Assembly (NCBI RefSeq): GCF_002834145.1
Contig: NZ_PHNT01000003.1
Span: forward strand, 62,247-126,246
Length of the DNA: 64,000 nucleotides
Source: Roseovarius salinarum
Lineage (GTDB): Bacteria; Pseudomonadota; Alphaproteobacteria; Rhodobacterales; Rhodobacteraceae
Direction: 5' to 3'
Shown piece by piece: positions 19,332-32,575 of the stretch. Every line of letters starts with the position of its first letter. Positions within the stretch are counted from its first letter, which is position 1. The position numbers were made by a program, and so were the translations under genes. The notes below the pieces were generated by a model. That model ran no database searches. It saw only the letters and a program-made list of their open reading frames with translations, and was not told the DNA's origin.

Positions 19332-20153
19332 TCAACGGCGCGCTTCCCAGCTGGGTGATGCGTGCTGCCTTGTATAGAACTCGCCCATCATGCCGATCAC
19401 GATCATCACCGTGCCGACGATAAGGGGATATTCGATGCTGGTGTAGCGTGGGAAATAGTTGACGAACACGAAACCGCGGCACTGGTCGATAAGGTGGAAC
19501 AGCGGGTTCCAGTCGAACATCGCCAGCATGAAGCCCGGCAGCGTGTTCACCACGAACATCTTTCCGGAGGCGATCATGTTCGCCCGGCGGTACACCGTCT
19601 GGAAGATTTCCACGAACCGCGGAAACCAGGGTTTGAGAGCCAGCAGAACCAGCCCCAGCGCGAGCCCCGTGAACCATGCCCCGAGAAACATGCCGAACGC
19701 CGGGAACGGTTGATGGATTTCGAAGGGCGTGAAGGCGACGTGATAGATGAAAAGGATCAGGAACAGCGTCAGTACCTGGATGTAGAGCGATCCCAGCGCT
19801 GCCGCGGAAATCGAAATGATCGTGTTCATCGGCGCGTGCTTCATCATCGCCGATGTCGGCCCCTCCGACCCCACGACCGCGCCCAGCGTCTTGACGTGCG
19901 TCAGGTAGAGGAAGATCCCCGACATGAGGTAGATCAGGAAATCGCCGCGCAGGGCGGCTCCCTTCAACCCGAGGATCGAGAACATCACGTAGAAGGCCGC
20001 GACGAAGATCACGGCCTGCAAGATGTTGAAAAGGATCGCCAGCAGCGCGTTGTTGTGCGTCTTCCGCACCTCGCGGACGGTGGCGTGATAGATCAGTTCG
20101 CCGATCGACGCAGCGGACTGAAGCGCGGTTTTTCGGCGGATCTGCTGAAACAT
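19332..20153 (-). CDS. ABC-2 type polysaccharide export permease (KpsM/Wzm-like)
   Basis: The 273-aa protein has about six membrane segments (for example LLAILFNILQAVIFVAAFYV and LTLFLILFIYHVAF) and resembles the permease half of capsule/O-antigen ABC exporters. The usual ATPase partner (KpsT/Wzt) is not adjacent: alkB lies on one side and cysQ, read divergently, on the other. It would form the inner-membrane channel for a finished glycan. The exact substrate class (capsule, O-antigen or teichoic-acid-like) cannot be told from the sequence. Confidence 0.82.
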   Translation of the reverse strand: MFQQIRRKTALQSAASIGELIYHATVREVRKTHNNALLAILFNILQAVIFVAAFYVMFSILGLKGAALRGDFLIYLMSGIFLYLTHVKTLGAVVGSEGPTSAMMKHAPMNTIISISAAALGSLYIQVLTLFLILFIYHVAFTPFEIHQPFPAFGMFLGAWFTGLALGLVLLALKPWFPRFVEIFQTVYRRANMIASGKMFVVNTLPGFMLAMFDWNPLFHLIDQCRGFVFVNYFPRYTSIEYPLIVGTVMIVIGMMGEFYTRQHASPSWEARR

Positions 20154-20288
20154 GTCACCCTGCGCTGCGGCCTGCCCGGATTATCGCAAGAACGTCTTGC
20201 CGTTTTGTTGTTGCCCCATCATAAGGGGCGCCGGGCAATTCTTCAACTGCGGGCCACGCCAGGCCCGCCGGCAAGCAGGACGCATCAA

Positions 20289-21086
20289 TTGGATTATCAA
20301 GACCTTGAAAGGGAAATGCGCCGCCTCGCCCTGGAGGCCGGCGACCGGATCATGGAGATCTACGATGCCGACGATTTCGGTGTGCGCGCCAAGGCGGATG
20401 AAAGCCCCGTTACCGAGGCCGACGAAGCCGCGGACGAAATCATTTCCGCCGGTTTGACCGCGGCTTTCCCGGGTGTGCCGCTGGTGACCGAGGAACAGGC
20501 GGCCTCGCACGACCTGGCGGCCGAGACGTTCCTGATCGTGGACCCGCTTGACGGAACGAAGGAATTCGTCAACCGGCGGGGCGATTTCACGGTCAACATC
20601 GCCTACGTCGAGAACGGCGAACCGATGCGCGGGCTGGTGTATGCGCCGGCGCGGCAGCGCATGTTCTACACCACCGCCGACGGCCGGGCCGTCGAGGAGG
20701 CCGGCCCTTTCGACAAGTGCACCATCGGAGAGCGGCGCCCGATTTCTGTGGGTGAGCCGGACAACGATTCCCTGATGGTGGTGGCCAGCAAATCGCACCG
20801 CGATGCCGCCACCGACGATTACATCGGCAAGTACAACGTGCGCGACATGACAAGCGCCGGCTCGTCGCTGAAGTTCTGCCTCGTCGCGACCGGTGAGGCC
20901 GACCTTTATCCGCGCCTGGGTCGCACAATGGAATGGGACACCGCCGCCGGTCAGGCCGTGCTGCGCGCCGCGGGCGGCCGCGTGGTGCGGTTCGACACGC
21001 ATGAGCCGCTGACGTACGGAAAGGCGGGCCATGCCAACCCGTTCTTCATTGCCCATGCACCGGGGGTGACGCTGCAGGTGCCGTGA
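20289..21086 (+). CDS. cysQ: CysQ: 3'(2'),5'-bisphosphate nucleotidase
   Basis: The 265-aa enzyme hydrolyses PAP, the inhibitory by-product of PAPS-dependent sulfation, to AMP. Inositol-monophosphatase-family metal motifs are present: TEEQAAS, VDPLDGTKEFVNRRGDFTVN (about 82-101) and EWDTAAGQAVLRAAGG. The start is taken as TTG at 20289, with AGGA 8 bases upstream; an ATG at 20316 is possible but has a ribosome-binding site only two bases away. The frame is open far upstream across the permease gene without any family similarity. It overlaps kdsB. The link to the downstream sulfotransferase is a plausible functional pairing. Confidence 0.93.
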   Translation: MDYQDLEREMRRLALEAGDRIMEIYDADDFGVRAKADESPVTEADEAADEIISAGLTAAFPGVPLVTEEQAASHDLAAETFLIVDPLDGTKEFVNRRGDFTVNIAYVENGEPMRGLVYAPARQRMFYTTADGRAVEEAGPFDKCTIGERRPISVGEPDNDSLMVVASKSHRDAATDDYIGKYNVRDMTSAGSSLKFCLVATGEADLYPRLGRTMEWDTAAGQAVLRAAGGRVVRFDTHEPLTYGKAGHANPFFIAHAPGVTLQVP

Positions 21087-21886
21087 TGTCCGTGCTCGTC
21101 GTCATCCCGGCGCGCTATGCGTCCTCGCGCTATCCGGGCAAGCCGCTCGCGATGCTGACCGGCGCGACCGGCACGGCCAGAAGCCTGATCGAGCGCTCGT
21201 GGGAAGCCGCGTGCCGGGTGACCGGCGTGGACCGCGTCGTGGTGGCGACCGACGACGATCGCATCCGCGCGGCCTGCGATCGGTTCGGCGCGGAGGTCGT
21301 GATGACATCGCCCGACTGTGCCAACGGGACCGAGCGCTGCGCCGAGGCGCACGCTGCGCTGGGCGGGGACCATGACGTCGTTGTCAACCTGCAGGGCGAT
21401 GCCCCGCTGACGCCCGCCTGGTTCGTCGAGGAGCTTGTCGCCGGCCTGCGCGCCGACACCGGTGCCGATGTCGCCACGCCGGTTCTGCGGTGCGACGGTG
21501 CCGCGCTTTCGGGGTTCCGCGAGGACCGCCGGCACGGGCGCGTCGGAGGGACGACCGCGGTCTTCGACCGGAACCGGCGCGCGCTCTACTTCTCGAAGGA
21601 AGTGATCCCCTACACGGCGGATGTCTATGGGCCCGAAGCGCCGACGCCGGTGTTTCACCACGTGGGCGTCTATGCCTACCGCCCCGCGGCATTGGCCGGG
21701 TATCCGGAGTGGGCGCCCGGGCCGCTCGAGGCGCTGGAAGGGCTTGAGCAGTTGCGGTTCCTCGAACGCGGTCAAACGGTCCTGTGCGTCGAGGTCGAGG
21801 CGCGTGGCCGGCAATTCTGGGAACTCAACAATCCCGAGGACATCGGCCGTATCGAGGACATGATGGCGGGCATGAACATGCCCTGA
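21086..21886 (+). CDS. kdsB: 3-deoxy-manno-octulosonate cytidylyltransferase (CMP-Kdo synthetase)
   Basis: The 266-aa enzyme activates Kdo with CTP. It shows the nucleotidyltransferase start VLVVIPARYASSRYPGKPLA, the ATDDDRI motif, NGTERCAEA and NLQGDAPLTP, plus the C-terminal WELNNPEDIGRIE. NLQGDAPL replaces the more usual NVQGDEPL, so it may be a KpsU-like or otherwise specialised copy. The ATG at 21086 overlaps the cysQ stop (TGATG); a GTG one codon upstream is an alternative. Kdo is used for lipid A core and for capsule linkers. Confidence 0.88.
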   Translation: MSVLVVIPARYASSRYPGKPLAMLTGATGTARSLIERSWEAACRVTGVDRVVVATDDDRIRAACDRFGAEVVMTSPDCANGTERCAEAHAALGGDHDVVVNLQGDAPLTPAWFVEELVAGLRADTGADVATPVLRCDGAALSGFREDRRHGRVGGTTAVFDRNRRALYFSKEVIPYTADVYGPEAPTPVFHHVGVYAYRPAALAGYPEWAPGPLEALEGLEQLRFLERGQTVLCVEVEARGRQFWELNNPEDIGRIEDMMAGMNMP

Positions 21887-22078
21887 GACACGCCTGGGCG
21901 GCGCATGGCCAGATGCCGTCACGCGATTGCCGCCTTGCGTCAGTTTTCCCGTCTTGGAAACGGCGTGTTTTGTCGATATTGGGGAGGCAAGGGGTGACGT
22001 CCCCGCGATCGCCGCCAGGCCATTTCGGCTGATCCGTCGGAGCGATCAGAATTTTGGTCACAGGACCCGGAGCGCATT

Positions 22079-22972
22079 ATGCAGAACAAGGTGACGAAGG
22101 CGATTTTGCCGGTTGCGGGTCTGGGGACCCGTTTTCTTCCGGCGACGAAGTCGGTACCCAAGGAGATCATGACGCTGGTGGACCGTCCGCTGGTCCAGTA
22201 TGCGATCGACGAGGCGCGCGCGGCGGGGATCAAGGAATTCATCTTCGTGACGTCGCGCGGCAAGGGGGCGCTGGAGGATTACTTCGACGCGGCGCCGCAG
22301 CTCGAGCAGCAGCTTCGCCAGAAGGGCAAGGACGCGCTTCTCGATCTTCTCAAGTCGACGAACATGGACAGCGGCGAGGTGGCCTACCTGCGCCAGCACA
22401 AGCCGCTGGGGCTGGGCCACGCGGTGTGGTGCGCGCGGCGCCTGATCGCGAACGAGCCCTTCGCGGTGATCCTGCCCGACGACGTGATCGCGGCCGAGCA
22501 GCCGTGCCTTGCGCAGATGGTCGAGGCGCACGCCGAGACGGGGGGCAACATGGTCGCGGCGATGGAGGTTCCGGAGGCGCGGACGTCGTCCTACGGCATT
22601 CTCGACGTGGCCGAGGACATGGGCTCGGTGGTGTCGACGCGCGGGATGGTCGAGAAGCCGGCGGCGGGCGAGGCGCCGTCGAACCTTGCGGTGATCGGGC
22701 GCTACATCCTGACGCCCAGGGTGCTTCAGAAGCTCAACCGGAAGAAGGCGGGCGCGGGCGGCGAGATCCAGCTGACCGACGCGATCGCGGACGCGCGCGA
22801 CGACGGCGACGACGTCTGGGGCTACCGCTTCCGCGGCGAGCGGTTCGACTGCGGCTCGAAGGCGGGCTTCCTGCAGGCGACGGTGGCCTTCGCGCTGGCC
22901 CGCGACGACCTGCGCGACGACCTCGCCCGCTACCTCGCCGAGGTCGTCAACGCCGACCGCGCCGCGCAGTGA
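22079..22972 (+). CDS. galU: UTP-glucose-1-phosphate uridylyltransferase
   Basis: The 297-aa enzyme makes UDP-glucose. Family marks are ILPVAGLGTRFLPATKSVPK (about 9-28), the uridine-binding LGLGHAVWCAR, and the closing FDCGSKAGFLQATVAFAL. It precedes galE by 17 bases, so the pair would supply UDP-Glc and UDP-Gal. The 192-base gap before it probably holds a promoter; I could not pick one confidently. Confidence 0.97.
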   Translation: MQNKVTKAILPVAGLGTRFLPATKSVPKEIMTLVDRPLVQYAIDEARAAGIKEFIFVTSRGKGALEDYFDAAPQLEQQLRQKGKDALLDLLKSTNMDSGEVAYLRQHKPLGLGHAVWCARRLIANEPFAVILPDDVIAAEQPCLAQMVEAHAETGGNMVAAMEVPEARTSSYGILDVAEDMGSVVSTRGMVEKPAAGEAPSNLAVIGRYILTPRVLQKLNRKKAGAGGEIQLTDAIADARDDGDDVWGYRFRGERFDCGSKAGFLQATVAFALARDDLRDDLARYLAEVVNADRAAQ

Positions 22973-22989
22973 ACCCGACGGGGCCGGGC

Positions 22990-23973
22990 ATGCAGAAGGT
23001 TCTGGTCACCGGGGGCGCGGGATACATCGGCAGCCACGCCTGCAAGGCGCTGGCCGCGGCGGGCTACCTGCCGGTGACCTACGACAACCTGTCGACGGGC
23101 TGGGCGGAGGCGGTCCGGTTCGGCCCGCTCGAACGCGGCGACCTGACCGACCGGGCGCGCCTCGACGCGGTTTTCGCCCGGCACGCGCCGGTTGCCGTGA
23201 TGCATTTCGCTGCCCTCAGCCAGGTGGGCGAGGCGATGCGGGAACCTGCACTCTACTGGCGCAACAACCTGTGCGGGTCACTCACGCTGGCCGAGGCCGC
23301 GGCGGCGGCCGGTTGCCGGGATTTCGTTTTTTCCTCCACCTGCGCCGTCTACGGGGATCACGACGGGGTCACGCTGGACGAGGCGACACACCAGGCGCCG
23401 CTCAACGCCTATGGCGCGAGCAAGCGGGCGGTGGAGGACATGCTGCGTGACATGGGTGCGACGCACGGGCTGCGGACGGTCATCTTTCGTTATTTCAACG
23501 TGGCCGGCGCGGATACGGATGGCGATGTGGGCGAATGGCACATGCCCGAGACGCATCTGGTGCCGCTCGCGCTGGCCGCGGCGGCCGGTGACCGGGGCGC
23601 GCTGACGATCCACGGCACGGACTATCCCACGCCGGACGGAACCTGCATTCGCGATTACGTGCACGTCAGCGATCTGGTCGATGCGCACCTCTCGGGCCTC
23701 GCCCGGCTTCGGTCGGGGGGCGGCGGCGGCGTGTTCAACCTGGGCACCGGGCAGGGGTTTTCCGTCCGCGAGGTGATCGAGGAAGCCGGCCGCGTGACGG
23801 GCCGGCCCGTGCCGGTGACGGAAGGCCCGCGGCGCGACGGCGATTGCACGCGCCTGGTATCGGGGTCGGCGCAGGCTGCGACCGACCTCGGCTGGACGCC
23901 CGAACGCTCCGACCTCGAAACCATGATCGGCGACGCCTGGAGGTGGTACCGGGGCGGCGGATACGCGGGGTAA
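22990..23973 (+). CDS. galE: UDP-glucose 4-epimerase
   Basis: The 327-aa short-chain dehydrogenase-type enzyme interconverts UDP-glucose and UDP-galactose. It has the NAD-binding VTGGAGYIGSHACKAL (about 6-21), the catalytic SSTCAVYGD and YGASKRAVE (Y-x3-K), and IRDYVHVSDLVDAHL. A longer open frame exists upstream over galU but has no family similarity, so the ATG at 22990 is used. The glycosyltransferase genes follow on the same strand after 31 bases. Confidence 0.96.
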   Translation: MQKVLVTGGAGYIGSHACKALAAAGYLPVTYDNLSTGWAEAVRFGPLERGDLTDRARLDAVFARHAPVAVMHFAALSQVGEAMREPALYWRNNLCGSLTLAEAAAAAGCRDFVFSSTCAVYGDHDGVTLDEATHQAPLNAYGASKRAVEDMLRDMGATHGLRTVIFRYFNVAGADTDGDVGEWHMPETHLVPLALAAAAGDRGALTIHGTDYPTPDGTCIRDYVHVSDLVDAHLSGLARLRSGGGGGVFNLGTGQGFSVREVIEEAGRVTGRPVPVTEGPRRDGDCTRLVSGSAQAATDLGWTPERSDLETMIGDAWRWYRGGGYAG

Positions 23974-24004
23974 AGTCCCGCAGCGCGCAGGGAGACGCAC
24001 GGGG

Positions 24005-25027
24005 ATGGAGCGCATCGCGGACCCTGTCATGGCCTACCGGCTTCGCTGGAAACGCCGCCGGCTGCTTCACCGGGCATTCCGCAAGCGGCGCCAGCTTGCG
24101 ACGGTCGCCGATCGCACGGGCCGGATCGGCCCCGGCGACATCCTTGCCGCCTCGACGGTGCGCAACGAGGCGATCCGGCTGCCGTACTTCCTGGACCATT
24201 ACCGTCGGCTGGGCGTCGATCACTTCCTTTTCGTCGACAACGGCAGCGACGACGGCACCGCCGCCTACCTTGCGCAGCAGCCCGACGTTTCGCTGTGGTC
24301 CACCCCCCACAGCTACAAGCTGTCGCGCTTCGGGCTGGACTGGTTGACGTGGCTGCAGATGCGCCATGCGCACGGCCACTGGTGCCTGACGCTCGATGCC
24401 GACGAGATCCTCGTCTATCCCTATCACGACACGCGCCCCCTGCCGGCGCTGACGGAATGGCTGGAGCGTGCCGGGGCGGAGTCCTTCGGGGCGCTGATGC
24501 TGGACATGTATCCGAAAGGGCCGGTCAGGTCGCAGGTCTACGATGCCGGCCGCGACCCTTTCGAGATTCTGTGCTGGTTCGACAGCGGCAATTACACGAT
24601 CACCCGCCAGGAAAAGCATTGGAACCTCTGGGTGCAGGGCGGTCCGCGCGCGCGGCTGTTCTTCGCCGACCGGCCGCGCCGGGCGCCGACGATGAACAAG
24701 GTGCCGCTGGTCCGGTGGCACTGGCGGTATGTCTATGTGAACTCGACCCATGCGCTTCTGCCGCGACGCCTGAACCTGGTCTACGACGAAGCCGGCGGCG
24801 AGAAGACGTCGGGTGTCTTGCTGCACACCAAGTTCCTGCACACGATCGTGGAGAAATCGGCCGAGGAAAAACGCAGGCGGGAGCATTTCGCCAACAGTGC
24901 GCTTTACGACAGCTACTATGACAGCCTGATGGAAAACCCGGACCTGTGGGATCCACAGTCCACCCGGCTGCGGAGCTGGCGCCAGCTGGAGGCGATGGGG
25001 CTGATGTCGCGGGGGGGATGGATCTGA
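24005..25027 (+). CDS. Glycosyltransferase (Glyco_tranf_2_4 type), first of two paralogues
   Basis: The 340-aa protein has an early catalytic region with TVRNEAIRLPYFLDHYRRLG (about 51-70), DNGSDDGTAAYLA and a metal-binding DxD-like DADE (LTLDADEILVYPY). It is clearly paralogous to the gene at 25220 along its whole length (shared DMYPKG, WVQGGPRAR/WIQGGPRAR, LLHTKFL, LGLMSKG/MGLMSRG). The donor and acceptor sugars are unknown. GGAG lies before the ATG. It follows galE directly. Confidence 0.88.
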   Translation: MERIADPVMAYRLRWKRRRLLHRAFRKRRQLATVADRTGRIGPGDILAASTVRNEAIRLPYFLDHYRRLGVDHFLFVDNGSDDGTAAYLAQQPDVSLWSTPHSYKLSRFGLDWLTWLQMRHAHGHWCLTLDADEILVYPYHDTRPLPALTEWLERAGAESFGALMLDMYPKGPVRSQVYDAGRDPFEILCWFDSGNYTITRQEKHWNLWVQGGPRARLFFADRPRRAPTMNKVPLVRWHWRYVYVNSTHALLPRRLNLVYDEAGGEKTSGVLLHTKFLHTIVEKSAEEKRRREHFANSALYDSYYDSLMENPDLWDPQSTRLRSWRQLEAMGLMSRGGWI

Positions 25028-25219
25028 CCGAGGCGCCCCCGGTGGCCCGGTCAAAACCGTTTACCCATGCGCCGATAGCGCCTATTCTGCCCGGGAACCC
25101 GGCGAAGACCGGGATCGTCATGCCGGAGTTCCCGCAACAGGGACGCGGCGGACTGAGGCGCGTTAACCGCCCGTTGTCGGCAGGCGGGCGATGATCGGGG
25201 CAAGGACGGAACTTGGGGC

Positions 25220-26230
25220 GTGAGCTTGTGGCAGTCATACCGGATGCGCCTTCGGCGCAAGCACGCCAGGGCACGTGCCTTTCGCAAGCATTTCTCGCTG
25301 ACGCCCGTCGTCAATCGGACGCGCGCGATCCGGCCGGGCGACATCCTGCTGTTTTCCACCTTCCGCAACGAACGCGTCCGGCTGCCCTATTTCCTGCGGT
25401 ATTACCGCGAGATGGGGATCTCGCATTTCCTCATGGTCGACAATGCCAGCACGGACGGCGGGCGTGATTACCTGGCCGAACAGGAGGATGTGTCGCTCTG
25501 GTCCACCGGGGCCAGTTACAAGCGGTCACGGTTCGGGGTAGACTGGCTGAACTGGTTGCAGTCCCGCTACGGGCACGGACACTGGACGCTGGTCGTCGAC
25601 CCCGACGAGTTCTTCGTCTACCCGTTCTGCGACACGCGGCCGATCCGGGCCCTGACGGACTGGCTCGACGTCTCGTCGATCCGGTCGTTCAGCGCGATGT
25701 TGCTGGACATGTATCCCAAGGGGACGATCAACGCGACGCCCTACTCTGCGGGGCAGGATCCGTTGGAGATCGCGTCGTGGTTCGATCCGGGAAACTACAC
25801 GATCGAGAAGAACCATTTCTACGGGAACCTCTGGATCCAGGGCGGCCCGCGGGCGCGCGTGTTCTTTCGCGATGCACCGGGCCAGGCGCCCGCGCTCAAC
25901 AAGATCCCGCTGGTCAAGTGGCACCGGCGCTATGCCTACGTCAGCTCCACCCACATGCTGCTGCCGCGGGGGCTCAACCTGGTTTACGACGAATGGGGCG
26001 GTGAGAGGGTCAGCGGCATGCTGCTGCACACCAAGTTCCTCGATACCTTTCCCGCCAAGGCGCGCGAGGAAATGGCGCGGCGCCAGCACTATGCCAACAG
26101 CAAGGAATACGCGGCCTATTCCGAAGGCCTTGCCGAGCAGACGGAGCTTTGGTGCAAATGGTCGGAGAAGTATATAAACTGGCGCCAGCTCGAGATCCTG
26201 GGCCTTATGTCCAAAGGAAACTGGGCATGA
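25220..26230 (+). CDS. Glycosyltransferase (Glyco_tranf_2_4 type), second paralogue
   Basis: The 336-aa protein starts at GTG. It aligns end to end with the preceding glycosyltransferase; the DxD-like motif here is DPDE (LVVDPDEFFVYPF) instead of DADE. Other shared motifs are STFRNERVRLPYFLRYY, DNASTDGGRDYL and NIPLVKW/NKIPLVKWHRRYAYV. It probably arose by tandem duplication, after which the copies may have changed acceptor. A 192-base spacer separates the two copies, and the GT14 gene follows 19 bases downstream. Confidence 0.88.
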   Translation: MSLWQSYRMRLRRKHARARAFRKHFSLTPVVNRTRAIRPGDILLFSTFRNERVRLPYFLRYYREMGISHFLMVDNASTDGGRDYLAEQEDVSLWSTGASYKRSRFGVDWLNWLQSRYGHGHWTLVVDPDEFFVYPFCDTRPIRALTDWLDVSSIRSFSAMLLDMYPKGTINATPYSAGQDPLEIASWFDPGNYTIEKNHFYGNLWIQGGPRARVFFRDAPGQAPALNKIPLVKWHRRYAYVSSTHMLLPRGLNLVYDEWGGERVSGMLLHTKFLDTFPAKAREEMARRQHYANSKEYAAYSEGLAEQTELWCKWSEKYINWRQLEILGLMSKGNWA

Positions 26231-26249
26231 CGGGAAAGGACGGGTTCGC

Positions 26250-27944
26250 GTGAGTGTCGGGATCGTCATGCTGGTGCACACCGCGTTCGGCCGGGCCGAG
26301 CAGGTGATCCGGCACTGGGCCGCCTCGGACTGCCCGGTCGTCATTCACGTCGATCGACGGGTGCCCGCGAAGACCTACAACGGTTTCGTCAAGCGGCTGT
26401 CCGATCTTCCCGACGTGGCATTCTGCGCGCGCCACCGGTGCGAATGGGGAACCTGGGGCATCGTGGCTGCCACCCAGGACGCCTCCGAGATGATGCTGGA
26501 GCGCTTTCCGCAGGTTCGGCACGTCTACCTGGCGTCGGGGTCCTGCCTGCCGTTGCGGCCGGTGCAGGAGTTGATCGACTATCTCGCCGCGCGACCGCAA
26601 ACGGACTTCATCGAATCCGCCACGACGACCGATGTGCCGTGGACCATCGGCGGGCTGGAGCACGAACGCTTCACCCTTCGGTTCCCGTTTTCCTGGAAGA
26701 AGCGGCGCTGGCTTTTCGATGCCTACGTTGCTCTGCAACGCAAGCTGGGATTGAAACGGCGGCTGCCCGCGGGGATCGAACCGCACATGGGCTCGCAGTG
26801 GTGGTGCCTGACGCGGCAAACGCTTTCGGCCATCCTGCAGGATCCCGAGCGCGCCACTTACGACCGGTTCTTCAGCAAGGTCTGGATACCCGACGAAAGC
26901 TATTTCCAGACGCTGGCGCGGCTGTACTCGCGGCAGATCGAAAGCCGGTCGCTCACGCTGTCCAAGTTCGATTTCCAGGGCAAGCCGCACATTTTCTACG
27001 ATGACCATCTGCAGTTGCTGCGCCGGTCCGACTGTTTCGTGGCGCGCAAGATCTGGCCCTATGCCGACAAGCTTTACGATGCCTTCCTGACCGACGAGGC
27101 TGGTGCGATGAAGCGCGCCGAACCCAACCCCGGCAAGATCGACCGGGTCTTCGCCAAGGCGGTCGAGCGGCGCACACGCGGCCGGCCGGGGCTGTTCATG
27201 CAGTCGCGTTTTCCCGCCGCCGCGCAGGAAAACGGGCTTACATGTGCGCCCTATTCCGTCTTCGAAGGGTTCAGCGACCTGTTCGAGAATTTCGAAACCT
27301 GGCTTGCAAAGATGACGGGCGCACGCGTTCACGGGCATCTTTTCGCGCCGGAACGCGCGGAATTCGCCGGCGGGCACGGCACGATGAACGGCGCGCTCAG
27401 CGACAGCGCCAAGCTGCGTGACCGCAATGCGCGTGCCTTCCTGTCGAACCTGATCTGGAACACCCGGGGCGAGCGCCAGTGTTTCCAGTACGGTCCGCGC
27501 GACAAGCGGGCCATCGAATGGGATCTCGCGACTGACCGCAACGCGCAGATCTCGGTGATCACCGGCGCCTGGGCCGTCCCCCTTTTCAAGTCCAATCTCA
27601 ACTTCGCCGACATACGGAAGGAAGCCGCCCGCCTGCAGAAGGTCGAAAGCGCCCACCTTGATGTTCTGCGGTCACAATGGTCCAGGGCGCGGATCCGGGT
27701 GTGGACGATGGCCGAGTTCGTCGAGGCACCGATGGAGCCTTTGCAGACCGTGATAGACGAGATCGGCCAGCAAAGCGCGCGCGGCCTGGCCGAGGTCCCG
27801 CGCATGACCGATCTGACCGGGTTTGGCCAGTTCCTGCAGAACCTGAAGAACCAGGGGATGCACCCTTACCTGATGGGCGATTTCTCGGCCGAGCCGATGG
27901 TCGAGGCGTCCGAGCCGGCACGCAAGCCCTATGTGGTGAAGTAA
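26250..27944 (+). CDS. GT14 (core-2/I-branching) glycosyltransferase with C-terminal DUF5927-type domain
   Basis: The 564-aa protein starts at GTG (26250). Residues about 1-260 resemble core-2/I-branching beta-1,6-N-acetylglucosaminyltransferases: VMLVHTAFGRAEQVIRHW, VIHVDRRV, the LASGSCLPLRP motif, MGSQWWCLTR and the WIPDESYFQTL region with its acidic pair. The rest (about 290-560) matches my recollection of the DUF5927 extension found with such enzymes in Rhodobacteraceae and has no known activity (GHLFAPERAEFAGG; SVITGAWAVPLFKSNL). Donor and acceptor are not deducible. It is four bases upstream of the sulfotransferase and almost certainly cotranscribed with it. Confidence 0.85.
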   Translation: MSVGIVMLVHTAFGRAEQVIRHWAASDCPVVIHVDRRVPAKTYNGFVKRLSDLPDVAFCARHRCEWGTWGIVAATQDASEMMLERFPQVRHVYLASGSCLPLRPVQELIDYLAARPQTDFIESATTTDVPWTIGGLEHERFTLRFPFSWKKRRWLFDAYVALQRKLGLKRRLPAGIEPHMGSQWWCLTRQTLSAILQDPERATYDRFFSKVWIPDESYFQTLARLYSRQIESRSLTLSKFDFQGKPHIFYDDHLQLLRRSDCFVARKIWPYADKLYDAFLTDEAGAMKRAEPNPGKIDRVFAKAVERRTRGRPGLFMQSRFPAAAQENGLTCAPYSVFEGFSDLFENFETWLAKMTGARVHGHLFAPERAEFAGGHGTMNGALSDSAKLRDRNARAFLSNLIWNTRGERQCFQYGPRDKRAIEWDLATDRNAQISVITGAWAVPLFKSNLNFADIRKEAARLQKVESAHLDVLRSQWSRARIRVWTMAEFVEAPMEPLQTVIDEIGQQSARGLAEVPRMTDLTGFGQFLQNLKNQGMHPYLMGDFSAEPMVEASEPARKPYVVK

Positions 27945-27948
27945 CGCG

Positions 27949-29379
27949 ATGGTGGGCCCTTTCGATTATTTCGTGGTGTTCGCGGAGATGCGCACAGGGT
28001 CCAATTTCCTCGAGGCCAACCTCAATGCGTTCGATTCCTTCGAGTGCCACGGCGAGGCGTTCAACCCGCATTTCATCGGGAATCCCAACCGCGACCACAT
28101 CCTCGGGGTCACGCGCTCGATGCGCGAGGCCGCCCCTGCCGAACTGATCGCGCGGATCAAGAGCCATAGCCAGGGCCTGGGAGGGTTCCGGTTCTTTCAC
28201 GACCACGATGCGCGCGCGTTCGAGATCTGCCTGGCCGATCCGCGCTGCGCCAAGATCGTCCTGACCCGCAACCCGGCAGAAAGCTACGTGTCGTGGAAGA
28301 TCGCCCAGCAAACCGGGCAGTGGAAGCTGACCAACGTCAAGCGACGAAAGCCCGGCAAGGCCCGCTTCGATGCCGCCGAATTCGACCGGCACGTCACCGA
28401 ACTCCAGGCGTTCCAGATGCGAATCCTGCACGGGCTGCAGACGACGGGGCAGACGGCCTTTTATCTCGCCTACGAGGATCTGGGCGACCTGGACGTCATC
28501 AACGGGCTGGCGCGGTTCCTCGGCAGCCGGGAGCAACTGGACCGGCTTGATGGGGCCCTGAAGATACAGAACCCGGGCGCGCTGACCGAAAAGGTGACCA
28601 ACCCGAAGGAAATGGAGCGCGCGCTGTCGCGGCCCGACCGGTTCAACCTGACCCGCACGCCGAATTTCGAACCGCGCCGCGGCCCCGCGGTACCGGCCCA
28701 CGCTGCGGGCCTGCATGCGCCATTGCTTTACATGCCGGTGCCGGGTGGGCCGGTGACAGAGGTGCGCGGCTGGCTGGCCGGGCTTGACGATGTTACGCCG
28801 GAGGACTTGCGGACCGGCTTCAACCAGAAGGATCTGCGCCGCTGGAAGCGCCAGTCGCCGGGCCACCGGAGTTTCACCGTGCTGCGGCACCCGGTGGCAC
28901 GCGTCCACACCGTGTTCTGCACCCGGATCCTGCACCCGGGCCCCAACGCGCTGCCGGAGATCCGAAAGACCTTGCGCAATTTCTACAAGCTTCCGATTCC
29001 TGCGCGCGGACCCGGAGAAAGCTATGATCGCGATGCGCATCGGGCGGCCTTCGTGGCCTTCCTCGATTTCCTCCGCATGAACTTGTCCGGTCAGACAGGT
29101 GTTCGTGTCGATGCCGGCTGGGCGACGCAGGAGGCCGTGCTGCAGGGGATGGCGCAGGTTCTCCTGCCCGACATGATCGTGCGGGACGCAGAGATGGAGG
29201 CCTACCTGCCCGCGCTGGCCATGCAGGTGGGATATCCGGCCGCCGGGCCACCCGGAACGCCGGGCCCGGATGTGCCCTTTCCGCTTGCCGAGATCTACGA
29301 CCAGGACATCGAGGACAGGGTCGCGGCGATCTATCACCGCGATTACGTCATGTTCGGGTTCGGCCCCTGGAGAGGCTGA
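27949..29379 (+). CDS. Two-part sulfotransferase-like protein
   Basis: The 476-aa protein begins with a sulfotransferase domain: a PAPS 5'-phosphosulfate loop-like AEMRTGSNFLEANL (residues 12-25) and a 3'-phosphate motif KIVLTRNPAESYVSWKIA (102-119), similar to Stf0/NodH types. After a linker (about 225-255) a second half carries another 3'-phosphate-like motif, FTVLRHPVARVHTVFC (309-324), but its presumed first loop (MPVPGGPVTEVRGWL) lacks the usual basic and Ser/Thr residues. So one active and one degenerate domain are inferred. Its position after the GT14 gene suggests sulfation of the glycan made here. Confidence 0.82.
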   Translation: MVGPFDYFVVFAEMRTGSNFLEANLNAFDSFECHGEAFNPHFIGNPNRDHILGVTRSMREAAPAELIARIKSHSQGLGGFRFFHDHDARAFEICLADPRCAKIVLTRNPAESYVSWKIAQQTGQWKLTNVKRRKPGKARFDAAEFDRHVTELQAFQMRILHGLQTTGQTAFYLAYEDLGDLDVINGLARFLGSREQLDRLDGALKIQNPGALTEKVTNPKEMERALSRPDRFNLTRTPNFEPRRGPAVPAHAAGLHAPLLYMPVPGGPVTEVRGWLAGLDDVTPEDLRTGFNQKDLRRWKRQSPGHRSFTVLRHPVARVHTVFCTRILHPGPNALPEIRKTLRNFYKLPIPARGPGESYDRDAHRAAFVAFLDFLRMNLSGQTGVRVDAGWATQEAVLQGMAQVLLPDMIVRDAEMEAYLPALAMQVGYPAAGPPGTPGPDVPFPLAEIYDQDIEDRVAAIYHRDYVMFGFGPWRG

Positions 29380-29381
29380 GG

Positions 29382-29400
29382 CGTTCAGGCTGCCTGAACG
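29382..29400. terminator. Possible small hairpin between convergent genes
   Basis: A perfect 8-bp stem (CGTTCAGG / CCTGAACG) with a 3-base loop lies just after the sulfotransferase stop and overlaps the last codons of ptsN. There is no T tract on either side, so termination is only a possibility. Confidence 0.35.
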
Positions 29401-29849
29401 GCCTGTGCTTCGGTCAGGATGGTGTGCAGCGTCGCCGGGTCGTTGTTGGCGCGCAGTTTCGAGCGGATGGCCGGGTCACGCAGCGTGCGCGAGACAAGCG
29501 CCAGAGCCTTGAGGTGCTTCACCCCAGCGTCGTGCGGCGCGAACAGCGCGAACGCCAGGTCGACCGGCTGGCGATCGACCGACTCGAAATCGACGGGTTT
29601 TTCCAGCAGCACCATCGCGCCCACGACATCGTCCAGCCCGTCGAGGCGCGCGTGGGGCAGGGCGACACCCTGCCCGACACCCGTGGGCCCGAGGCTTTCG
29701 CGTTCCTGCAACGCCTCGACGGCTTCGGTCGCTGACACGGCATAGCTTGTCGCGGCGATATCGGCCAGTTCGTGGAGCAGCCGCTTCTTGCTCGAGGCGG
29801 CGGAAACCACGCGGACGGCCTCGGGTTTGAGGATCATTGAGATATCCAT
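29385..29849 (-). CDS. ptsN: PtsN: EIIA-Ntr phosphotransferase regulatory protein
   Basis: The 154-aa EIIA-type protein accepts phosphate on His66 (GVALPHARLDGL). It belongs to the regulatory nitrogen PTS, which controls potassium transport, metabolism and envelope processes rather than sugar uptake. The frame has the family start with conserved RESLGPTGVGQGVALPHAR. It follows hpf by 42 bases, the order found in many proteobacteria. Confidence 0.94.
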   Translation of the reverse strand: MDISMILKPEAVRVVSAASSKKRLLHELADIAATSYAVSATEAVEALQERESLGPTGVGQGVALPHARLDGLDDVVGAMVLLEKPVDFESVDRQPVDLAFALFAPHDAGVKHLKALALVSRTLRDPAIRSKLRANNDPATLHTILTEAQAVQAA

Positions 29850-29891
29850 TCGTCTCGGATCGTTGCGACGGTGCGGGCGGCGTTGCCCCGG

Positions 29892-30455
29892 TTACGGGTC
29901 GATCCAGCCAATGTTGCCATCATCCCTGCGGTAGACCACGTTCAACCCGTCGTTTTTCTCGTTGTGGAAAACGAGCACTGGCGCCCCGGCGAGTTCCATC
30001 TGCATTACCGCTTCGCCGACCGAAAGAGACGGGATCTTGGTCTCCATCTCGGCCACGATCACGGGTTGCAGGCTCTCCGGTTCCGAATCCTCGCCTCCGT
30101 CTCCAGTCGCGAGGATATATGAGGACGCCCCGGAGAGTTCAACCGGCTGCGCGCGCTCTCGGTGGTGGTCCTTCAGGCGTCTCTTGTACCGGCGAAGCTG
30201 CTTCTCGAGCTTGTCACAGCACTTGTCGAAGGCCGAATAGATCTCGTGGGCGTGGGCCTTGGCCTGGGCCGTCAGGCCGGTGGAAAGATGCACGATGGAC
30301 TCGCAGACGAACTCGTTCGCGCTCTTGGAAAAGATGATGTGCGCGTCGGTCGGCCTTTCGGCGTATTTGGCCACGGCGGTGCCCAGCTCCTCCTTGACGT
30401 GGGTTTGAAGGGCATCGCCGATGTCGATCTGCTTTCCGCTTATCTGGTAGCGCAT
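29892..30455 (-). CDS. hpf: Ribosome hibernation promoting factor, long form
   Basis: The 187-aa protein has an N-terminal S30AE domain (1-100; MRYQISGKQIDIGDALQTHV) and a C-terminal domain (about 130-187; SVGEAVMQMELAGAPVLVFHNEKN) that drives 100S ribosome dimer formation. The ATG at 30455 was chosen because AGGAG lies five bases upstream and it gives the canonical start; an upstream in-frame ATG would add seven residues. It is upstream of ptsN and downstream of lptB. Confidence 0.95.
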   Translation of the reverse strand: MRYQISGKQIDIGDALQTHVKEELGTAVAKYAERPTDAHIIFSKSANEFVCESIVHLSTGLTAQAKAHAHEIYSAFDKCCDKLEKQLRRYKRRLKDHHRERAQPVELSGASSYILATGDGGEDSEPESLQPVIVAEMETKIPSLSVGEAVMQMELAGAPVLVFHNEKNDGLNVVYRRDDGNIGWIDP

Positions 30456-30624
30456 CTTTTCTCCTTTTCTTGACATCTCGGGGCACAGCGAAATGGATAC
30501 CGGCCGCCGGCCGGAAGGTCAGCCCCGAATGCAGGAACATGACCTCCGCCCGGCGCGCCGGAACGCGGGCCGGCGGCGGGCCCGGGTCGTTGAAGGCGCG
30601 GAAATCACGGAAGCCATGCCACCA

Positions 30625-30653
30625 ATTGAGGCGCTTTCCGGGTGGCTTGTCAA
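30625..30653 (-). promoter_or_regulatory. Candidate promoter for hpf-ptsN
   Basis: On the minus strand TTGACA (30648-30653) is followed after 17 bases by CTCAAT (30625-30630), in the 246-base gap after lptB. The -10 is imperfect. It would give hpf a leader of about 160 bases. Confidence 0.45.
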
Positions 30654-30701
30654 TGCGCGCAGCCGGCGCCACGCGTGAATTCCCTGCGCCATGCGGGGGC
30701 C

Positions 30702-31460
30702 TCAGTAGATCTTGAAGGTGTCGCCGAGATAGACGCGGCGGACGTTCTCGTTGGCAACCACCTCGTCCGGCGTGCCCGACATCAGGACCTGCCCGTCGTG
30801 CAGGATGTAGGCCCGGTCGACGATCTCCAGCGTCTCGCGCACGTTGTGGTCGGTGATGAGGACGCCGATCCCGCGGTTGCGCAGGTCGGCGACGAGGTGG
30901 CGTATGTCGCCGACCGAGATCGGGTCGACCCCGGCGAACGGCTCGTCGAGAAGAAGGTAGCGCGGATCGGCGGCAAGGCAGCGCGCGATCTCGACCCGGC
31001 GGCGTTCCCCGCCCGAAAGCGCCATCGCGGGGGCACGGCGCAGGTGCTCGATGGAGAACTCCGACAGCAACTCCTCGAGCCTCTCGCGCCGCTTGTGGCG
31101 ATCGGGCTCGGCGACGTCGAGAATGGCGCTGATGTTGTCCTCGACCGACATGCCGCGAAAGATGGACATCTCCTGCGGCAGGTAACCGATTCCGAGCTTG
31201 GCCCGGCGGTACATTGGCAGCGTCGTGACCTCGCGCCCGTCCAGCCGAACGTGCCCGCCCTCGGGCTGGACCAGCCCGGCGATGGCGTAGAAGGTCGTCG
31301 TCTTGCCCGACCCGTTGGGGCCGAGCAGGGCCACGACCTCGCCCTGCCGCAAGGTGAGCGAGACCTCCCGGATCACCACGCGGCGGCGGTAGCTCTTGCG
31401 CAGGTTCTCCACCGTCAGGCCGGTGTTCTCGTGGGCGATATGAAGGTCCGGGGCTGCCAC
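30702..31460 (-). CDS. lptB: LPS export ABC transporter ATPase LptB
   Basis: The 252-aa ATPase powers LPS extraction from the inner membrane with LptFG. Walker A is GPNGSGKTTTFYAIAG, the signature LSGGERRRVEIARCL, and Walker B LLLDEPFAGVDPI followed by the switch His in VLITDHNVRET. The start is GTG at 31460, four bases after the lptA stop. It is in the lptC-lptA-lptB operon. Confidence 0.96.
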   Translation of the reverse strand: MAAPDLHIAHENTGLTVENLRKSYRRRVVIREVSLTLRQGEVVALLGPNGSGKTTTFYAIAGLVQPEGGHVRLDGREVTTLPMYRRAKLGIGYLPQEMSIFRGMSVEDNISAILDVAEPDRHKRRERLEELLSEFSIEHLRRAPAMALSGGERRRVEIARCLAADPRYLLLDEPFAGVDPISVGDIRHLVADLRNRGIGVLITDHNVRETLEIVDRAYILHDGQVLMSGTPDEVVANENVRRVYLGDTFKIY

Positions 31461-31464
31461 GCGG

Positions 31465-31956
31465 TCAGTCCCCTGCGCCGATCACGGTCTTGACCCGGCC
31501 CGAGATCCGTGCCGTGCCGGCGACGGTGTCGACGGTCATGCGCTCGGCCGTGAGTGTCGTGTTGCGCTGGACCAGCAGCACGTCCCCGCGCATGTCGATG
31601 GTGCCGTTCTCGACGTCGTAATCGGCGCGCGCGGCCTCTGCCGCGTCATCGCCGCTGACGAGTGTCACGCCACCCGTCGCCTCGAGCCGTGCGATCCGGT
31701 CGCTGTTCTCGCGATAAATGACCCGCACCCGCGGCGCCGACAACCGCATGTCGCCCTGCCCGATGAACACGTCGCCGGTGAATTCCGCCGCGCCGTCGTT
31801 CTGGTTGACCGTCAGGTTGTCCGCGCTGATCTCGACGGGAAGATCGCGCGCCTGCCCTGCGCCGCCAAAGGCGACTTCGGCGCCCTGTGCCGCGGCGGGC
31901 TGCGCCGCCATGGTGGCCAGGGCCAGGAAAGCGGCCAGAAGGGTCAGTCGGTGCAC
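31465..31956 (-). CDS. lptA: LptA: periplasmic LPS bridge protein
   Basis: The 163-aa protein has a signal peptide (LTLLAAFLALATMAAQPAAA) and the OstA-like beta-jellyroll repeats (VEISADNLTVNQNDGAAEF; DMRLSAPRVRVIYRE). It forms the periplasmic bridge that carries LPS to the outer membrane. The GTG start at 31956 is used because it leads directly into the signal peptide; the frame is open further up, inside lptC. The junctions before and after lptA share the sequence TGACCGCGTG. Confidence 0.93.
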   Translation of the reverse strand: MHRLTLLAAFLALATMAAQPAAAQGAEVAFGGAGQARDLPVEISADNLTVNQNDGAAEFTGDVFIGQGDMRLSAPRVRVIYRENSDRIARLEATGGVTLVSGDDAAEAARADYDVENGTIDMRGDVLLVQRNTTLTAERMTVDTVAGTARISGRVKTVIGAGD

Positions 31957-31960
31957 GCGG

Positions 31961-32575
31961 TCAATCCCCGGATTTCGCCGGCTTGTATACCAGCTTGACT
32001 CCGTTTGCAAAAATCAATTCGGCGTCGTCGCTCCCGGGGCGTGACGTCAGCCGCATGCGTCCGGCCTCGAGCCGACCGGCCGGTGCCTTGCCCGAAACCG
32101 CGCCCTTCGATTCGGCGAACAGCTGGTCATAGCTTGTCGCAAGCGCTTCGGTGTGCAGGCTGTACCCGGCGGAGGTTTCGAAGGTGACGTCGCCCCTGAG
32201 GTCTGCAGTCAGCGCAGCCTGGTCGATCTCTGCCGTTTCCGCGCGCATCTCGATCACCGTGCCGCCGGTCAGCCGAACATCGGTGCGCACCTTCCGGGCG
32301 ATGATCCTTTCCTTGTGGTCCGGGTGGGGGCGGGCGCTGTCGGCCGACAGCGAAACCTGGTCTCCGCCAGTGGTGACGCCGGCGAAAGTGGGGCGTGTGG
32401 CGCCCTGGTCGCGCGCACGTTTCTGAACGTCGACTGCAGCTGCGGGGATGGAGCGGGACGGATCCACGGAGCGCGAGAGCATGAAAACCGTCGACAGTAT
32501 CCCCAGCGCCGCCAGTGGCAGCAGGATCTTCATCCACGCCACCATGTTGGAATAGAAATTGTCGCGCCACGTCAT
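31961..32575 (-). CDS. lptC: LptC: inner-membrane LPS export protein
   Basis: The 204-aa protein has one N-terminal membrane anchor (about 14-33, MKILLPLAALGILSTVFML) and a periplasmic LptC/OstA-like beta domain (SADSARPHPDHKERIIARK; LRGDVTFETSAGYSLHTE). It links LptB2FG to LptA. It starts five bases after the exonuclease stop, and lptA follows. Confidence 0.9.
   Translation of the reverse strand: MTWRDNFYSNMVAWMKILLPLAALGILSTVFMLSRSVDPSRSIPAAAVDVQKRARDQGATRPTFAGVTTGGDQVSLSADSARPHPDHKERIIARKVRTDVRLTGGTVIEMRAETAEIDQAALTADLRGDVTFETSAGYSLHTEALATSYDQLFAESKGAVSGKAPAGRLEAGRMRLTSRPGSDDAELIFANGVKLVYKPAKSGD

Follow-up and report, generated by a model that had tools for sequence, protein, structure and literature searches.

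The closest described counterparts of the locus studied here are gene clusters for sulfated bacterial capsules. Cobetia marina KMM 1449 produces a structurally proven sulfated capsule, and its cluster, as presented in the accessible part of the publication, contains kpsETMD, kpsSC, cysNC/D, cysQ and a sulfotransferase (PMC11766843). A sulfated capsule cluster was also described for Vibrio sp. KMM 8419, and the available portion of that paper states that no similar organisation was found among public genomes (PMC11641403). Here, we analysed a 64,000-nucleotide stretch of DNA (the window) from Roseovarius salinarum, lying on contig C23 of its 3.4 Mb genome, in which polysaccharide genes at 19332-29379 end in a gene trio encoding a glycosyltransferase (GT2b), a GT14 protein fused to DUF5927 and a two-domain sulfotransferase (ST). 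The genes, their motifs, their order and their co-conservation are established at the sequence level, and we consider it possible, with a probability of roughly 0.45, that the locus contributes to a conserved, sulfated glycan of the cell surface through a Kps-type pathway whose genes are dispersed.

A constant gene trio in the Rhodobacteraceae

Gene neighbourhoods were compared by tblastn in stretches of up to 20 kb from 100 genera, chosen from the listed better-scoring ST matches on long contigs. GT2b (25220..26230, + strand; PF13704, 4.7e-33), GT14-DUF5927 (26250..27944, +; Branch family PF02485 66.9 bits, cut-off 23.4, 2.7e-18; PF19349 534.8 bits, 6.3e-161) and ST (27949..29379, +; profile match to PDB 9vki and Stf0-like N-domain fold) were found together in 100 of 100 loci. 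With 29 congeners added, the three genes share a strand and are spaced by less than 100 bp in all 129 loci (100/100 genera and 29/29 congeners). To its left, cysQ and galU were each present in 94 of the 100 loci and the export permease in 86, these left-hand counts being lower bounds owing to stretch edges, with the permease near the edge; galE (66, some weak), kdsB (58) and a second GT2 copy (40) come and go. Reading upstream of ST, 21 of the 29 congeners show the layout type of the window, with two GT2 copies (once three), while the other eight carry the trio but show no cysQ, galU or permease within about 10 kb. Upstream genes were inspected in four of these eight; in the profile-scanned locus L284 they are regB, SCO1/SenC and regA. 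Since the trio persists without the left-hand block in congeners, it is the smallest constant unit, and its tie to cysQ is usual, not obligatory.

The first-pass annotation had proposed a 10-kb sulfated surface-glycan module and had named a lack of co-conservation as what would refute it. Co-conservation proved complete for the trio and extensive for cysQ, galU and the permease, so that a constant core stands, whereas the fixed 10-kb extent does not, as kdsB, galE and the second GT2 vary. The further proposal that CysQ, by clearing 3'-phosphoadenosine 5'-phosphate (PAP), ties the two ends together is not supported, because the trio occurs without cysQ nearby in the eight congeners and PAP also arises from other metabolism.

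ST was matched in all 35 congeners and the source genome, and in none of the 24 genomes of other families in the same sample. Across the family, 248 genera were scanned at one genome each; ST was matched in 205, a count that includes a few weak or partial matches (e.g., G235 at 4.7e-5 and G273 at 1.9e-5), and DUF5927 in 204. Both occur in 201 genera, ST only in 4, DUF5927 only in 3 and neither in 40, giving a phi of 0.90 which, like the other genus-level counts and the Fisher value below, ignores shared ancestry. A class-wide sample of 385 genomes yielded five DUF5927 matches, namely the source genome and four others from its family. Among the best 80 of 593 matches, the nearest named relatives of ST come mainly from Roseovarius and other Rhodobacteraceae. 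The locus also turns up, at about 60% identity, in records titled Nocardioides, Flavobacteriia and Cytophagaceae, which are probably mislabelled or contaminated. Among 72,556 plasmid records, none matched the permease and ST gave a single distant hit (31.1% identity, 49% query coverage); given this near-absence, a plasmid-borne (mobile) origin of the module is unlikely.

The ST protein reaches the cut-off of no Pfam model (Sulfotransfer_2, E 0.003; Sulfotransfer_1, E 0.32). A profile built from 42 ST sequences retrieved PDB 9vki, 'LPS sulfotransferase NodH' (LPS, lipopolysaccharide), at 8.6e-14, compared with 1.2e-5 for the single sequence. The AlphaFold2 (AF2) model shows two domains (mean predicted local distance difference test score, pLDDT, 87.9; predicted template modelling score, pTM, 0.51), a putative N-domain binding 3'-phosphoadenosine 5'-phosphosulfate (PAPS; residues 1-231) and a second domain (residues 246-476), separated by a weak linker at 232-245. 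The predicted N-domain fold superposes on Stf0 (1tex) with a Z of 12.4 and a root-mean-square deviation of 3.9 over 196 aligned residues, and named sulfotransferases make up nearly all matches listed in its structure search. A plain Foldseek search gave three chains at E <= 0.001, all of them sulfotransferases, with guanylate kinases following at weaker scores. R15-T-G-S-N19, G35-E36, R107 and S115 are invariant in 101/101 alignment rows; we take the first of these to be the 5'-phosphosulfate loop and R107...S115, eight apart, to be the 3'-phosphate motif. The view of the first-pass annotation that a sulfotransferase ends the glycan gene run is borne out by these intact N-domain motifs.

In the same 101-row alignment, the C-domain shows no canonical PAPS motifs: the loop motif is lost and position 321, eight past R313, varies (A 30, H 18, S 10, D 10, E 9), while H314-P315 is invariant. 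Alone, the C-half scores 20.1 bits against Sulfotransfer_2 (cut-off 22). An internal duplication was considered and is unsupported, the two halves comparing at a probability of 10.2% over 44 columns; the description of the second domain as of sulfotransferase type therefore goes back to the sub-threshold Pfam match. Judged by its sequence profile and the predicted fold of its N-half, the last gene encodes a sulfotransferase.

Both other trio proteins keep their motifs in 101/101 rows: D127-x-D129-E130 in GT2b and W212-I-P-D-E216 in GT14, the latter presumably the conserved acidic catalytic motif. The nearest solved sequence to the GT14 profile, and its only named PDB relative, is human xylosyltransferase 1 (9.3e-7), and the GT14 model matches the Branch fold of 2gam with a Z of 12.0; whole-model structure searches of GT14-DUF5927 covered residues 1-241 only. 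A sulfotransferase-like fold for DUF5927 was entertained for its similar strand-helix order, yet profile comparison gave a probability of 12.8% (E 0.0022) against the ST N-half and of 0.5% against the C-half, and the idea was dropped. DUF5927 was not found in one open-licence literature collection searched. No transmembrane segment was found in GT2b, GT14 or ST, and the permease is the sole protein of the block with hydrophobic segments.

Flanking genes and exchangeable cassettes

All genes named in the first-pass annotation were located at their proposed positions by profile matches. The order on the + strand is cysQ, kdsB, galU, galE, GT2a, GT2b, GT14-DUF5927 and ST, with the permease divergent on the - strand (19332..20153). 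The latter is an ABC-2-type polysaccharide export permease, KpsM/VexB-like by its NCBIfam matches (VexB 6.1e-15, KpsM 2.7e-6), neither of which comes near its curated cut-off. CysQ, a 3'(2'),5'-bisphosphate nucleotidase for PAP removal (20289..21086, +; TIGR01331 266.6 bits, cut-off 228.8), probably starts at TTG 20289 and is followed by the CMP-Kdo (Kdo, 3-deoxy-D-manno-octulosonate) synthetase KdsB (21083..21886, +; NF003950 345.8 bits, cut-off 234). GalU, the UTP-glucose-1-phosphate uridylyltransferase (22079..22972, +), scores slightly below its cut-off (TIGR01099 319.3 against 326.8 bits), and the UDP-glucose 4-epimerase GalE (22990..23973, +; TIGR01179 393.9 bits, cut-off 262.3) probably starts at ATG 22990; the family scans of cysQ and galE were run with starts 20274 and 22978. 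GT2a (24005..25027, +; PF13704, 1.5e-34) is an extra glycosyltransferase and the cassette gene of this locus. With start codons as tested, cysQ and kdsB overlap by 4 bp, and 19 and 4 bp separate GT2b from GT14 and GT14 from ST; two wider gaps of 192 bp each lie 5' of galU and 5' of GT2b. Promoter-like matches in the locus stay at chance level (1 versus 1.3 expected).

An Rfam match to the Ruegeria cis2 small RNA (RF02645; 19437..19589, +; 90.2 bits, gathering 50) lies antisense within the permease gene, and RF02645 was also matched once per locus in 6/6 other genera scanned. In Ruegeria pomeroyi, cis2 is listed as antisense to SPO0040, 'ABC transporter, permease' (PMC4809877 Table 1), and is reported as validated by reverse transcription quantitative PCR (PMC4809877). 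The match may reflect the conserved permease coding sequence alone.

Five bp past the end of ST lies the convergent group ptsN, hpf, lptB, lptA and lptC (29385..32575, -; open reading frame reading and homology across loci), the lpt genes serving LPS transport. This group is probably outside the module. In the 100 loci, ptsN and hpf were each counted 89 times, rnd 87, lptA and lptC 86 each, and lptB 92, a number that includes other ABC ATPases. The ptsN-hpf-lptBAC-rnd genes lie right of the trio in 14 of 16 congeners checked (6/8 with the trio alone, 8/8 of the others); in congener loci L295 and L296, the trio stands apart from both the left-hand block and the lpt group.

In 40 loci, the slot between galU/galE and GT2b holds the second GT2 copy, and in 59 a GT4 gene, c12; the two never co-occur, and one of the 100 loci has neither. 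Another GT2 gene, c15, nearly always accompanies c12; it was counted in 57 loci, one of which has two GT2 copies, and c12/c15 matched PF00534 and PF00535. On a tree built from four neighbouring genes in 85 loci, cassette state changes at least 24 times versus 26 with shuffled labels, and well-supported branches alone force 8 changes; in the GT14 and ST trees such branches force 11 and 13, all of these being quick trees with one support measure. The frame was therefore retained through many exchanges or differential losses of the cassette.

A candidate pathway and its alternatives

Kps-type genes are encoded elsewhere in the genome. Contig C6 carries together a KpsS-like gene (PF05159 182.4 bits; KpsS model 204.6 bits, cut-off 600), a VexA-like export gene (Poly_export 57.8 bits, cut-off 28) and, beside the KpsS-like gene, a KpsC-like open frame of 1081 residues with four more PF05159 matches. 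At a distance of 66-70 kb on C6, KpsE- and KpsT-like genes stand with a UDP-galactopyranose mutase gene (Glf; TIGR00031 304.6, cut-off 303.75). Near them, the open reading frame L263:12612-13526 (+) has a start that looks sulfotransferase-like by eye and matched no Pfam (E <= 0.01) or NCBIfam family. A second KpsE-KpsT-like pair on C1 follows DAHP_synth_1 (read as KdsA) and phosphomannomutase genes and adjoins an unrelated ArsP_1 permease. The KpsE-like genes score 241.3 and 180.4 bits against TIGR01010 (cut-off 437.5), and the best curated matches of the ATPases beside them are TagH/VexC, under cut-off. No KpsM adjoins either pair, no genome-wide search having been aimed at KpsM, which makes the permease of the window a candidate partner. 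PF05159 (KpsS/KpsC) is found in 225 of 248 genera, including 200 of the 201 in which ST and DUF5927 co-occur (Fisher 3e-18 for the association with the trio markers); the lone exception, G271, has a genome 62% complete.

PAPS would be supplied by a single ATP sulfurylase/adenosine 5'-phosphosulfate (APS) kinase fusion on C1, outside the locus; no second APS kinase match was found in the genome. The two CysH homologues each contain CC...CxxC, which we take to be the APS-reductase signature; with CysH of this type, assimilation need not use PAPS, which would then serve sulfotransferases. APS kinase was matched in 232 of 248 genera (194/201 with both trio markers, 31/40 with neither) and, being near-universal, is undiagnostic.

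From these enzymes glycan sulfation is likely, and we infer the acceptor, the export route and the surface location as follows. GalU and GalE would provide UDP-glucose and UDP-galactose, and KdsB CMP-Kdo. At the cytoplasmic face, the cassette glycosyltransferases would act first (here GT2a, in other genera the GT2+GT4 pair), after which the constant pair GT2b and GT14-DUF5927 would complete the saccharide. The ST N-domain would move sulfate from PAPS onto it, the degenerate C-domain probably helping to hold the acceptor or the GT14 partner, and CysQ would clear the by-product PAP. The KpsM/VexB-like permease would export the product with the KpsT-, KpsE-, VexA/KpsD-, KpsS- and KpsC-like proteins encoded elsewhere.

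Several observations weigh against this pathway. The Kps-type genes do not form one cluster, being spread over C23, C6 (two places) and C1; the KpsM, KpsE, KpsT, KpsS and VexA matches all fall below the curated equivalog cut-offs, and NCBIfam gave no match for the KpsC-like frame. PF05159 also occurs in 19/40 genera with neither trio marker (several weak), the association carries the shared ancestry mentioned above, APS kinase does not discriminate, and 7/201 genera with trio genes show no APS kinase. The genome holds four Sulfotransfer_1 matches, so PAPS and CysQ have other users. Finally, eight congeners lack the left-hand block, and the lpt neighbours fit LPS equally well. As a separate observation, C58:140444-142068 holds a neighbouring pair of Sulfotransfer_1 genes (93.3 and 79.8 bits).

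In the main alternative, the trio would modify not a capsule but the core oligosaccharide of LPS, or a different constant glycolipid, GT2b and GT14 adding outer sugars and ST sulfating one of them before flipping and Lpt transport. We regard both the target and this sequence of steps as unlikely, though deserving serious attention. The ptsN-hpf-lptBAC group stands directly right of ST in most loci, including those six of the eight congeners without the left-hand block, the near-universal single-copy spread is more in keeping with a constant core than with a variable capsule, ST has as its closest solved relative a protein annotated as an LPS sulfotransferase, and KdsB is a core LPS enzyme. However, lpt synteny may be old and neutral, the lpt genes are missing in 2/16 congeners, and a permease of the KpsM/VexB kind is present in 86/100 loci while Kps-type genes track the trio. 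Kps-type export is favoured over the LPS core because of this permease and the PF05159 association.

If the trio functioned alone, with cysQ, kdsB, galU, galE and the permease as conserved neighbours without a shared pathway, its target might be a secreted glycolipid or a protein. The eight congeners without the left-hand block, the absence of kdsB and galE from many loci and the relatedness of GT14 to XylT1, a protein xylosyltransferase, are in line with this. Yet cysQ and galU accompany the trio in 94/100 genera, and the slot of the two alternative cassettes is bounded precisely by galU/galE on one side and GT2b on the other; both the independence of the trio and such a target appear improbable to us. 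That the last gene encodes a PAP/PAPS-fold scaffold for GT14 instead of an active sulfotransferase is very improbable: the sub-cut-off Pfam scores and the motif-less C-half would fit a scaffold, but G35-E36 and both phosphate motifs (5' and 3') of the N-half are retained in every row.

The trio might make the constant sulfated tip of a family-wide sulfoglycan carried on one of two exchangeable inner structures, a doubtful proposal. Equally speculatively, the inner part would be swapped repeatedly, as in serotype switching, and the sulfated tip kept by selection; it is no less conjectural that the tip serves as a receptor or contact structure for phage, gene transfer agent or algal host. If the favoured pathway is right, a single dedicated sulfated surface glycan would be common to most genera of this very abundant marine family, made by a DUF5927 fusion and a two-domain sulfotransferase, enzymes without known function, and DUF5927 would gain a pathway. 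Studies of what phages, gene transfer agents and algal partners contact on these cells would then have a defined target, and what looked like a strain's odd capsule would become a family core function with exchangeable parts.

Comparison with known systems

At the protein level, the ST N-domain resembles the Stf0 trehalose sulfotransferase (1tex) and NodH (9vki) in fold and PAPS motifs; unlike these, ST carries a C-terminal fusion to a second, degenerate domain of about 230 residues. GT14 shares the Branch domain fold with xylosyltransferase 1 and core-2 GlcNAc transferase, whereas here it is fused to DUF5927.

No link could be established to the capsule genes of the Rhodobacter capsulatus gene transfer agent; rcc01081-01086 and wza/wzb/wzc appear in the accessible text without a named sulfotransferase or glycosyltransferase (PMC10218006). 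In one open-licence collection, nothing joining Rhodobacteraceae, sulfotransferase and lipopolysaccharide was found, and roseobacters go unmentioned among the matches listed there for sulfated polysaccharide or sulfotransferase literature.

As in the E. coli group 2/3 (kps) systems, counterparts of the Kdo transferases KpsS/KpsC are present, with candidate counterparts of KpsMT, KpsE and an outer membrane polysaccharide export protein; unlike there, they do not form one cluster and curated cut-offs are unmet, and the E. coli description, in the portion available, is without a sulfotransferase (PMC12220298). PAPS genes, sulfotransferases, UDP-glucose supply and putatively Kps export are shared with the Vibrio sp. 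KMM 8419 cluster, which has no kpsC and for which the accessible text does not mention cysQ (PMC11641403). The likeness to Cobetia extends to polysaccharide genes, glycosyltransferases, cysQ and a sulfotransferase in the locus and to kpsSC counterparts and candidate Kps export genes in the genome. That published cluster runs counter to the first-pass view that such a combination had not been described. According to the part of the source available, however, the Cobetia genes, about 70 of them, form a single cluster that includes cysN/C and cysD, whereas here the Kps genes are dispersed and the PAPS genes lie elsewhere; the constant GT2-GT14/DUF5927-ST trio is family-wide, while the Cobetia cluster is within one genus (PMC11766843). 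Combined, these comparisons place the locus in the already known kind that joins Kps, cysQ and a sulfotransferase, and what is new is a constant trio found family-wide, together with cassettes that can be exchanged.

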